NCBI GenBank assembly: GCA_964019415.1
Contig: OZ025885.1
Span: forward strand, 1,324,747 to 1,388,746
DNA length: 64,000 bases
Direction of reading: 5' to 3'
Source of the DNA: Ianthella basta
Lineage: Eukaryota; Porifera; Demospongiae; Verongiida; Ianthellidae
Every line of letters starts with the position of its first letter. The stretch's first letter is position 1. Position numbers and translations under genes: made by a program. Positions 1 through 63,960 of this stretch are shown piece by piece. The notes beneath the pieces are model-generated. The model did no database searches, was not told the DNA's origin, and saw only the letters and a list, made by a program, of their open reading frames with translations.

Positions 1-3000
1 CCTGTGGCACAGATTGATATACCCAACAACACAGTGAGTGGGAATACTGCACACTTAGACTATCAATTAAATTCTTAGTGTAACTACCATTCATTTCCCC
101 TCTAATATGTATATCCTGTAGTTCCTCTTATAGACACCAGTACACCTGCTTAACACTGAGCAGCTATGGTTGCTTGTCACTGTATCAATCCATCAGCATT
201 TTATGGTGCTAATCATACTTTCTCATTAACAGTACTACCTAACTATGTTAACTCAGTAAGAGTTAACACTTTTTGGTTGTTTTTCAGGTACTTGCTTATG
301 CTCATGGGGATACATCTGTGGTAATACGTGGTCTGGATGAGCTGGGCAACCCTACTGTTGGCACCTTCAGTATCACCCAGAGGAAGAAGGTAGTGGCATG
401 CTGGTATAGAGCTGTCATGCTCAGGGATGGGGCCAACTGCATGTTTCTGTTATGACTGTGCATTTGCAGACCTGGTACACAGGACTAGTAGAGCTGTTAA
501 CATATTGAAGTAGCATACATACCATGCAGTGTACAGTGTTGAAATTGAGTTCATTTTTCTGCCTGTGTACAATGTACTTACAGCGAGAATTGGTACTCTT
601 ACCAACTGTAAGAGTTCTGCTACCAAGTGACCAACAATACAACACAAGGTATATCCCATTTCGCAAGCCAACCATCAATGAAAGTTATGAAATTATTGTG
701 AAAAATGTGAGCTAAGCAACACATTTCCTTCTTAGGATGAATACGAACACATTGGTTTACGAATTGCATTATGTTTCATTGCAGTTTTATGCAAGAGTCA
801 CTGCTAATATCACTCTAGTACACAAATCATGCCCAGCTGGATTTGACATTGTGGAGTGGATTATTCCAGGGCTATATGTCTGTCGGTGCAGCATGCAGGA
901 TGCGAACATCCTAAGTTGCAACAGGAGCTCAGAGCATGTACTGCTTCAAGTGAGAGCTAGTGTATGGTATGCATGTGATAAATGGATTGCTGGTTGTCCT
1001 CCAAGGCCAGTTCATGAGATGTGTCACTATGTCATCCCCCCCAATCATTGTTTGACTCCACCGCTCTCCTCCATGCACTTTCCAGCCCATTTCACATACT
1101 TCTCCCCCAACCAATGCAGGACTGGTTGTGGGGCACTCCTGTCACCAACTCAGATGGTAACAGAGTCCTTTTCAGCACAAGCTGTTCCCATGGTTACTGC
1201 CGCTGCCAGCCTTGGCATGTAGACAATAGGAGAGAGTGCAGGTTCACTGTGTCTCAGGGCTTGGGACAGAGGGACCAGCAGTGCACTTGTAACAGACAAG
1301 GTAACGAGAGTTACCGTAACTGTATTTACTGCACCAGCAAGTCTTCTAATTATAGTATCATATTAGATTCTGACCTTCTTGCATCTCTATGTGTACATAA
1401 TTATACTAACTGTGCTCTAAGAATCTTGCTATCTCTGCCGGATTGCAATGAATCTCTCCCATTTTCCAACAGGCTTTCTCTGCGGGAGCTGTATCAATGG
1501 TAAAGGTGTGACTGCTCTACTTAACAAATGCAAGGCTTGTGGCACAACAAATGTGACACTCATCGTCCTCCTAGGTAATCAGCTTGGTAGCCGAAGTCTA
1601 TTCTTCCTCAATGCAGTGGTGCTCATTATCCATTAGTTTCAAATAAAATTTTCATGCGCTTGAGTAAGAAGGGTGACTTTAACTCATACTACCCTGTTCC
1701 TCCTCTGCCAGTCCTCATGGATTCGGCTATTTTCCTGGCCATTCTCATCTACTCACTGGTGAAACCAATCCACCTCGCTGCCTGGTGGTACCCCATACTA
1801 TTTTACATACAGGTGAGAAGGAAGTAACAAGTACTGTGTGATATGTTGGTCTGGTGTGGCACCTATTCTGTTTGCGTCCTTGAAACTGTGGTTTCTACAT
1901 CTTACGTTGACTACTACAATAGGTTGCATCCTACTCCACGGGTAACCTCTCAGCAACGTTTGGTGGCTTCCATGATGCAGTAAGTGTACACAGTGGTGGC
2001 TGTAGCATACAATGTTCTCTGTATATTGTGTGTAGATAATTCTTGAGCGAAACATGTACATACGTATTAGATTGATGCTCTTTGTGAACAAACTAGCCAA
2101 ATACCCACTCCCCAATGGATGTCAAAATCAGCCAAATATGTATGCTAGGGTGCAATTTCTACTGGTAACTCTCACAATTGTGTTTGTCTGCGACAAATTG
2201 GCTATATAAGTGGCGCGTGTTCTGTTAGTTGCACATACGTATGCACACTTCACTTGGGGGAATATGTAGAAACACCTTTGTGGAATATTCACTGATTTCC
2301 CTTCCGAATCAACTGTACATGTGTACAGATGTTCTACCTTAGCAGTCTCCTTGGCCTCTTCTTCCCCTACGACTTCTGTCTGTATCCAAATGCAACTGCT
2401 GTGGAGGTCTATGCCATCAAGTACATACCATTCATTGTGGCTCTTGTTATCTGTACAGTATTCGGAGTGCTGGCAAGGTATGCTGTGGTGAATTAGCTTC
2501 TTTCACATATATTCCCTGTGTCACATCACTGTATATGTGTATGTGTATGTGTGTGTGTGTGTGTATGTATGCGTGCCTGCGTGCATGCGTGCATGTGTGC
2601 GCGACTATCTGCATGCTTTGTTCTGCAGGTGTTTAAGAAAGCGGCCAAGACCAAACTTCAGTGGTATCTGGCTGATTGCCACCCTACTGATTAATCCTGC
2701 AATTCATACATCCTTTTCTATTCTGGGATGTCCTGGAGTTCAGAAGGAAGATGGCCGATGGATGAGTGTATGTATGATGTTTCACATTCAGGTAGTGGTT
2801 TTCATGTTATGCATGGCTACAGTATTGTCCATCATGGCTAACAATTCACTCAAACAATTGTGCTAATGTAGAGTTCCCTTAGCTTCAATGCACTTCAATT
2901 TGGTAACAACTGCCTCTGCAATTTAACAAATGTGTTTCCCACTAATTCCTGACACATGCACACAACCACACCCATGCATATGCATGCTCACATGCACACA

Positions 3001-62800: not shown

Positions 62801-63960
62801 TGCCAACTGTAAAAGTTCTATTCCCAAATAACCAAGAATACAGGATGAGGTATGTCCCACTCCGGAGGCCAGACATCAATAAAAGTCATGAACTCATTGT
62901 GAGAACTGTAAGTTCAACATCAATGCACTATCTTAGAATGAATATGACAGCATTAGTTGTTCATGGTTTGATATGATTCTTACTTATTTGTCTGTACAGT
63001 TTGGTGCGAAGCCCACGGCCAACTTTACCCTAGTACCTGAATCATGTCCAGCCGGATTTGACATTGTGGAGGGGATAGTTTCAGGGCAATTTGTCTGTAG
63101 GTGTAGCTTTCAGGATGCAAACATCCTATATTGCAACACAAGCTCAGAGGACATACTGCTTCGAGTGAGAGCTAGTGCAATGCATGTATGAATGTGATTC
63201 ATGGATTACCATTCATCCATCATTGCCAGTTCATCAGACTTGTAACCATGTCTAACCCACCTCCCAATTTCTGGCTTGGCTCCATCTCAATCTCTCTCCT
63301 CACCTTAAAAGCCTGTGAGCTCCGTCACTCTGCCTCTCTCCCTGGCCCACACAGGACCGCTTGTGGGCCACCCCAGTTACCAACTCAAATAGTAACAGAG
63401 TCCTTTTCACCACAAGCTGTTCCCATGGTTACTGCCGCTGCCAGCCATGGTATACAGACAATAGAAGAGAGTGCAGGTTCACTGTGTCTCAGGACTTGGG
63501 ACAGAGGGACCAGCAGTGCACTTGTAACAGACAAGGTACATAACAAGTGTTTCCAGAGTTAGAGAATGTGCCAACAAGTCTTAATTCAAATTATAAAATA
63601 ATTTGATTCTAAAATTCTTGCAGAATAATGCACACATAAATAATAGTTATTATAAAAATAACATCACCACGTGTTGCAAGTTGCGTGTGGTGGTGATGTC
63701 TGTATATATGGTGGTGCGTGCATGGTGGTTGTTGCTGTATGTGGTGTTGTATGGTGGTACATGTGGTTGTACATGCACCACTGCATTGGTTACATTTGTA
63801 CAAAATCTACTCTTTTGTAAGAATTGTTTATACTGAGGCTTGAAATGAAACTCTACAGGATTTCTCTGTGGGAGCTGTGTCAGTGGTACTGGAGTGACTG
63901 CTCTACTCAACAAATGCGAGGACTGTGGACCAGCCAATGTCACACTCATTGTCTTTCTAG
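56815..63960 (+). CDS. Copy G: beta-helix/multi-TM receptor-like protein, 5' part (exons 1-13)
   Basis: Exons: 56815-57281, 58901-59535, 60113-60269, 60405-60516, 60626-60774, 61052-61172, 61247-61389, 61586-61682, 61768-61896, 62785-62907, 63000-63164, 63355-63535, 63859-63960; exons 14-21 lie beyond the window. ATG 56815 matches the start of copy D; an in-frame ATG at 56800 is an alternative. Exon 2 could end at 59529 (donor GTGCAC) or 59535 (better donor GTGAGT); both keep frame. Exon 9 is 27 nt longer than in other copies. The exon 1 product has a signal peptide (MAEWRLALVFAHLLYVLVL) and the ectodomain keeps FxxN/GG repeats and the Cys-rich CRCSFQDANILYC and FLCGSC motifs. No lesion was seen. 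Intron 1 (1.6 kb) contains hairpin elements. Function is unknown. Confidence 0.8.
57928..57941. promoter_or_regulatory. Perfect RFX-type X-box palindrome
   Basis: GTTGCCATGGCAAC matches the consensus for RFX transcription factors (GTNRCC/RGYAAC half sites) and is a perfect 14-bp palindrome. It lies in intron 1 of copy G beside a second palindromic pair CGCG...CGCG. Use in vivo is unproven; it may simply be the end of an inserted element. Confidence 0.4.
57975..58040 (+). repeat. Short inverted repeat in intron 1 of copy G
   Basis: GGGATATAACAGGA pairs with TCCTGTTATATCCC, separated by about 36 bases. Lies in the same GC-richer island (57920-58740) as the hairpin at 58617. Confidence 0.7.
58617..58732 (+). 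mobile_element. Long perfect-looking hairpin in intron 1 of copy G
   Basis: TTATACCACGGCGCTTCGG...TGTATATGGATTTTAG pairs with CTAAAATCCATATACA...CAGCGCCGTGGTATAA around a GC-rich apex GGGCGCTTCGCGCCC. Stem about 55 bp per side. It may be the right end of a larger nonautonomous element starting near 57920. Confidence 0.7.

Follow-up and report, generated by a model that had tools for sequence, protein, structure and literature searches.

What kind of protein is encoded by a gene that lies head to tail in many copies on one contig of a sponge genome, and why do these copies agree almost fully in some exons and diverge in others? The question is raised by a 64,000-nucleotide stretch of the Ianthella basta assembly (the window; G000:C18:1324747-1388746, contig C18 of a 209-Mb, 96-contig genome), in which self-BLAST and tblastn searches using D's exons as queries locate eight plus-strand units or remnants, A, B, B', C, D, E, F and G. 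Coordinates are relative to the window unless C18 positions are stated. An earlier note, made from the letters of the window, had described these as units of one gene; the searches bear this out, and the array proves far larger than the window. It extends over C18 1.275-1.435 Mb, with units U1-U4 left of the window and, on its right, H, I, J, a two-exon fragment and K. Two inverted copies, one of them lacking several exons, lie at C18 1.075-1.095 Mb, and a divergent subfamily, picked up by tblastn with the D exons, occupies 1.066-1.073 and 1.099-1.105 Mb. Searched against the genome, the exon-20 peptide matches at 17 places, all on C18 (30 candidates scored). Judged from comparison of the sequences, the units are mosaics, in which ectodomain and membrane blocks re-assort. 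The explanation favored here, at a probability of roughly 0.45, is a family of receptors for adhesion or recognition on which gene conversion and crossover have acted at the scale of exons.

Gene model and exon-by-exon divergence

Unit D, the reference gene, comprises 21 exons with GT-AG borders throughout (exons 17-19 were placed by eye) and encodes 1,242 amino acids (aa). When its exon phases are transferred to the 13 array units in and around the window, 11 of them (U2, U3, U4, A, B, D, E, G, H, I, and J) yield complete stop-free open reading frames (ORFs) of about 1,224-1,252 aa with GT-AG borders, in agreement with the 21-exon model already proposed. The exceptions are U1, which has no start because the extracted sequence begins there, and F, which is broken by a stop in exon 17 and has no clear exon 1. 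In place of transcripts, intronless paralogues were used to ask whether the ectodomain is joined to the membrane part. Both L033 (contig C15, 1,364 aa) and L034 (C14, 1,398 aa) hold the two parts in a single ORF, and L033 is colinear with the spliced product of D from residue 97 to 1122 (E 3e-35, 22% identity). Because of these paralogues, the ectodomain and membrane exons are, on the evidence of the reading frames, one gene encoding one protein, as the earlier note had it, and not two separate genes. The search with L033 returned 36 rows (27 stop-free, near-full-length single-exon frames including L033 and L034, four frames with stops and five pieces); as it scored only 34 of the 445 candidates from the first look, further members of the superfamily may exist. 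Intronless relatives also lie in tandem arrays, at C14 2.43-2.70 Mb, C15 6.37-6.48 Mb and C14 5.78-5.80 Mb, with frames of about 1,320-1,460 aa; retroposition followed by expansion is a possible origin.

Across the 11 complete units, synonymous divergence (dS) per exon varies ninefold (9.0), from 0.089 in exon 16 to 0.802 in exon 4, and none of 2,000 shuffles of codons among exons is as uneven. At codons with an invariant amino acid, the proportion of silent differences (pS) is 0.096 in exon 16 and 0.107 in exon 12, and reaches 0.372 in exon 17 and 0.414 in exon 19. The 225 silent polymorphic codons are clustered along the gene to a degree found in none of 1,000 permutations (runs test). Hardly any variation among units is left in exon 12 of the collar and in exons 14 and 16 of the membrane part. 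The trees of ten exon blocks conflict, with 82 of 90 cross-tests rejected in the approximately unbiased test (p-AU 0.05, uncorrected). The eight that are not rejected concern exon 2 and exons 3-7 in both directions, the data of exons 8-10 on the tree of exons 3-7, those of exons 11-12 on exon 2, those of exon 16 on exon 2, exons 3-7 and exons 13-15, and those of exon 19 on exons 20-21.

Individual pairs display the same pattern. Between U3 and G, dS is 0.66-0.76 in exons 2-7 and 0.04 in exons 13-16, while between G and H it is 0.59-0.72 in exons 2-7 and 0.04-0.10 in exons 19-21; H and I differ by 0.06 in exon 2 and by 0.70-1.19 in exons 19-21. Unit B switches partner at exon 16, where the identity of its intron flanks to D is 0.91 on the left and 0.29 on the right, and to F 0.24 and 0.89, respectively. 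Unit K (C18 1427251-1435386) joins a main-subfamily exon 1 (115 of 130 same-amino-acid codons identical to D) to a divergent body (138 of 307); this chimera stands at the array edge and adjoins a fragment with exons 11-12 only (1426545-1427140). Such mosaicism would result from gene conversion together with unequal crossover.

Exon 16 occurs in 22 genome copies, all on C18 and in both orientations (DNA search). Fifteen match over the full 147 bp, 14 at 96-100% and that of E at 95%; all differences of E fall after the first 113 bp, within which the most changed full-length copy is that of A, with four changes (96.5%). Seven further copies match over 113 bp only, at 97-98%, so that all 22 copies are 96-100% identical in this stretch although the two subfamilies have otherwise diverged strongly; K, s1 and s2 were read directly, and the four others were placed in the divergent subfamily by their shorter match and position. 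Between subfamilies, 32-34 of the 35 same-amino-acid codons of exon 16 are identical, versus 39-48% in the exons outside exons 1 and 16 (12 comparisons), an excess with a Fisher p of 3e-11 to 3e-10 in the three comparisons tested. The introns that flank exon 16 differ between subfamilies and among many units, and some units share flanks. Taken by its letters, the exon-16 block looks recently and repeatedly homogenised. A second feature lies upstream of exon 18, where at least eight CA units are found within 40 bp of the acceptor in 10 of 13 units (not U1, G, and J) versus 2 of 246 other acceptors.

According to the favored explanation, the units exchange exon blocks through gene conversion and unequal crossover, so that ectodomains and membrane modules re-assort while exons 1, 8, 12, 14, 16, and 18 remain alike. 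Homology handles for this exchange are probably provided by exon 16, nearly identical among copies, and by the (CA)n that precedes exon 18.

Ectodomain, collar and membrane module

The first 700 residues of D contain 12 FxxN motifs (shuffle mean 3.1, maximum 10) and six GGx(I/L/V) motifs (shuffle mean 1.05, maximum 5), and 2,000 shuffles never reach either count. The Pmp (polymorphic membrane protein) repeat model PF02415 scores above its 20.6-bit cut-off in 10 of 14 exon-2 domains, with a best score of 42.9; whole proteins score 12.7 (D), 20.8 (L033), and 14.8 (L034). The FxxN and GGA(I/L) repeats recognised in the earlier note are thereby confirmed. Genome-wide, the same Chlam_PMP model has no match at E ≤ 0.001 (122 candidates scored), since a model of 19 positions loses power at that scale. 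Each of the 11 array proteins has one core GGA[ILV]-x(14,18)-FxxN, and L033 and L034 have none (shuffle mean 0.0). The Beta_helix family PF13229 (cut-off 25.9 bits) scores 26.3 in whole D, 32.8 in L033 and 21.5 in L034, and 5 of 14 exon-2 domains are at or over the cut-off. The AlphaFold2 (AF2) model of exon 2 aligns to beta-helix structures, the neighbors shown being mostly polysaccharide lyases, hydrolases, and epimerases with 6-17% identity. The model and the profiles support a right-handed beta-helix fold with Pmp-type rungs for exon 2, the structure that had been expected for the ectodomain; exon 1 did not fold. Each ectodomain of the 11 array proteins carries 17-25 NxS/T sequons, which, with the divergence per exon, agrees with the clustered, variable and glycosylation-rich family that had been suggested.

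The collar has the pattern CGxC...CxxC. Behind its CGxC the family average displays ten hydrophobic peaks, which need not all be passes, in line with the Cys-rich collar and 8-9 transmembrane segments read earlier from the window; the WQYDG and ARPYK motifs are present as well, as WHYDG in D. Even with E allowed up to 10, none of the Pfam families matches the membrane halves of D and L033 (HMMER filters drop many weak matches), and the membrane half has no PDB relative by profile (best E 0.14). A search for relatives of the single-ORF proteins found one stretch matching the pattern in prokaryotic contigs, none confirmed, and none in viral contigs, one-sequence patterns reaching close kin only. 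In the tail, a motif N-V-(T/S)-E-V is kept in the exon-21 copies although the exon is variable, and may be a cytoplasmic docking motif. The order of domains is supported by the gene models, the paralogues, and the profile and fold evidence: a signal peptide, a beta-helix ectodomain, the Cys-rich collar, about nine membrane passes without a Pfam model and a short tail. The protein is presumably exposed at the cell surface, where the beta-helix may bind surface molecules, glycans or others, on microbes, food particles or cells of conspecifics, and the membrane module may signal or anchor.

Recognition family or plain receptors

Chlamydial Pmps share with the array the FxxN and GGA(I/L/V) rungs, a beta-helix ectodomain, PF02415 and the variable multigene family. 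However, the array has eukaryotic introns and a multi-pass helical anchor, and Pfam searches of D, L033, and L034 at E up to 10 detect neither the Middle domain nor the C-terminal autotransporter beta-barrel; the term "Pmp-like" of the earlier note therefore applies to the repeat and not to the class of protein. Core motifs are also sparser than the 188 given for 34 chlamydial proteins (PMC11166332), there being 0-1 per protein here. Trichomonads have Pmp-like proteins that likewise lack the Middle and autotransporter domains and are membrane anchored, and expression of selected members raised adhesion; theirs have a C-terminal transmembrane domain and an ATPITK motif, whereas the array has the collar, about nine passes and exon mosaicism (PMC6701047). 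In Dictyostelium, GrlP, GrlQ, and GrlR join a Pmp-like N-terminal region to a multi-pass receptor, a G protein-coupled receptor (GPCR) of Family 3 (class C) (PMC1885808), to which no sequence match is found here. In clustered protocadherins, also tandem surface proteins, low dS of single domains is read as gene conversion, with a max/min dS of 1.4-7.9 in frog and mouse groups and 231 in a zebrafish group (PMC4978886); the 9.0 found here was obtained by another dS method and unit and compares only roughly, and their ectodomains are of cadherin type, unlike the 21 exons and beta-helix of the array. The sea-urchin SpTrf (185/333) genes are clustered, mosaic and associated with simple repeats as well, but have two exons and are flanked by GA repeats (PMC8634487), while the (CA)n lies inside the gene at one acceptor. 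The trichomonad adhesion and the Dictyostelium and protocadherin parallels make an adhesion or recognition receptor the best guess. Sponge aggregation factors, which are clustered, polymorphic and glycosylated candidates for allorecognition with a Calx-beta/Wreath architecture, resemble the array as a clustered family. Among the Pfam matches of D, L033, and L034 at E up to 10 there is no Calx-beta.

Mosaic evolution fits a diversifying recognition or adhesion family without proving it, and exon-block exchange is frequent in recognition or adhesion gene clusters. Several observations weigh against that explanation. Mean pairwise dN/dS (dN, non-synonymous divergence) is 0.18-0.60 per exon, with no exon-wide positive selection seen. 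Exons 19 and 21, of the membrane part and the tail, vary as much as ectodomain exons 2, 3, 6, and 10. Variation in exon 2 is not concentrated outside the strands (mean entropy 0.82 in strands, 0.84 elsewhere, p 0.97), although a model of recognition by loops might have predicted this. On the structural side, four of the 14 exon-2 domains (D, A, G, and F) fall below the Pmp cut-off, Foldseek alone gives no match at E ≤ 0.001 (best E 0.19, probability at most 0.33 among the 50 rows shown), and the exon-1 model is poor (pLDDT, the predicted local confidence, 39). AF2 reportedly also gives confident but unrealistic beta-solenoids for repeat proteins (PMC11795689). In addition, left and right flanks disagree at exon 16 in 5 of 7 pairs, and they do so at exon 2 (9 of 10) and exon 11 (4 of 6) too, counting pairs with any alike flank and leaving out those with intermediate identity or a missing flank; with counts this small, exon 16 is not proved the sole hinge. 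The disagreement at exon 18 (39 of 47) was discounted, its left flank being the (CA)n.

Because mean dN/dS is lower than 1 for all exons, the off-strand positions of exon 2 are not enriched in variation and exons 19 and 21 are as variable as the ectodomain, a plain role in adhesion or feeding is nearly as likely as the favored one. The array would then hold non-variable adhesion, matrix or feeding receptors produced by ordinary lineage-specific expansion, with mosaicism a by-product of tandem copies and neither selected diversity nor a self/non-self role. Many tandem families show mosaicism, and the many intronless relatives suggest a general, old family; against this explanation stands the repeated re-assortment of blocks while exons 12, 14, and 16 are nearly fixed. 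As the main rival to homogenisation, the silent identity of exon 16 might instead reflect nucleotide constraint, through splicing or an RNA or DNA element, and not conversion. The sharp end of identity between subfamilies after about 108-113 bp and the copies in both orientations would suit such an element, as would pS, which is 0.040 in codons 1-36 and three times higher, 0.122, with shared variants, in codons 37-49. However, neither strand folds unusually as RNA (z -0.47 and -0.73), and the window has no Rfam match at gathering score. Changes are also tolerated: among the 15 main-subfamily copies, codons 1-36 have ten variable sites, of which nine are private to one copy and five alter the amino acid, like fresh mutations awaiting erasure. 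Several other exons are low in dS as well, and dS tracks dN across exons (Spearman 0.76), which leaves constraint an unlikely cause.

Two further alternatives concern what the protein does. Membrane-anchored glycan-cleaving enzymes, with the beta-helix as catalytic lyase or hydrolase, are suggested by the structural neighbors shown, yet the low identity to these, the lack of any Pfam enzyme family above cut-off in D, L033, and L034, and the occurrence of Pmp-type rungs in known adhesins make them improbable. Seven-pass signalling receptors akin to GrlP/Q/R, diverged beyond recognition, would have the like order of parts, a Pmp-like N-terminal region followed by a multi-pass module (PMC1885808), with the CGxC...CxxC collar here. 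This is very improbable, as 7tm_3 is among the Pfam families that find no match in the membrane halves, no PDB relative is found there, and there are ten hydrophobic peaks versus seven.

A more far-reaching form of the favored receptor explanation would be a new early-animal recognition system that swaps ectodomain and membrane blocks through a hinge exon 16 and the dinucleotide repeat at an acceptor, and that serves self/non-self or symbiont discrimination. It is rather unlikely; if true, a family of beta-helix receptors would parallel the immunoglobulin, leucine-rich repeat or cadherin clusters. The genes for self/non-self distinction in sponges are still debated. Sponges do make this distinction (PMC5450542), and sponge recognition gains a concrete candidate in this large family, clustered and mosaic, whose ectodomain resembles bacterial adhesins and whose membrane domain matches nothing in Pfam. 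Pmp repeats in eukaryotes are already known (PMC11166332, PMC10715098); a literature search, with subscription papers and preprints outside its scope, found no earlier account of such an architecture in sponges, nor of the mosaic way in which it evolved. The mosaicism of the units is what is new here, the family being of the clustered, diversifying surface-protein kind. Even if it merely serves adhesion, it would offer a new architecture for eukaryotic Pmp-like proteins and an instance of an animal array of surface proteins whose exons are homogenised and exchanged one by one.

Features of the window and its surroundings

Table 1. Units, domains and repeats of the array in window coordinates (pTM, predicted template-modelling score).
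Feature	Position	Strand	Remarks
Exon 1 of D	25710..26176	+	Predicted signal peptide and start of ectodomain
Exon 2 of D, predicted beta-helix core	26654..27276	+	AF2 mean pLDDT 74, pTM 0.78
Exons 3-10 of D	27512..29691	+	Remaining ectodomain
Exons 11-13 of D	29771..30573	+	Cys-rich collar ending CGxC, and start of membrane part
Exons 14-20 of D	30711..33925	+	Multi-pass membrane module with W(H/Q)YDG and ARPYK
Exon 21 of D, C-terminal tail	34145..34283	+	Conserved N-V-(T/S)-E-V motif
First 113 bp of exon 16, D	31318..31430	+	Near-identical block; other starts 2329 (A), 15681 (B), 19459 (B'), 41535 (E), 51896 (F)
(CA)n ending in acceptor AG of exon 18, D	31987..32076	+	Others 2995-3134 (A), 16411-16522 (B), 20190-20442 (B'), 42083-42210 (E), 52626-52746 (F)
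Unit A, 3' part	1..5333	+	Start at -4097, outside window; complete stop-free ORF of 1,242 aa once flank added
Unit B	6473..18374	+	21 exons, 1,253 aa; resembles D left of exon 16 and F right of it
Reverse-transcriptase-like ORF in intron 10 of unit B	11783..13279	+	RVT_1 E 0.0049, below cut-off
Remnant B'	18970..21833	+	Exons 14 and 16-21 only
Remnant C	22979..23443	+	Exon 1 only
Unit D, complete reference gene	25710..34283	+	21 exons, 1,242 aa
Unit E	35432..43635	+	21 exons, 1,231 aa; exon 2 matches Chlam_PMP at 42.3 bits
Unit F	46886..54989	+	Runs from exon 2 through exon 21, exon 1 not clearly present; exon 17 interrupted by an in-frame stop; probable pseudogene
Unit G, 5' part	56815..64000	+	End at 68244, outside window; 1,243 aa; exon 2 resembles D, membrane part resembles U3/H

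The ORF in intron 10 of unit B is presumably Penelope-like with a GIY-YIG part. The spacer between E and F holds open frames at 45144-46193 that resemble a retroelement remnant by eye, with no Pfam family above cut-off. Minisatellites of 55-57 bp lie in this spacer (44108-44353) and in the one after remnant C (24054-24241), and both spacers are alike. Elsewhere in the genome there are 34 matches to Wnt, a family tied to animals (best E 1.8e-66; none in 14 control genomes), and Wnt-like matches form a tandem run at C16 1.99-2.03 Mb.

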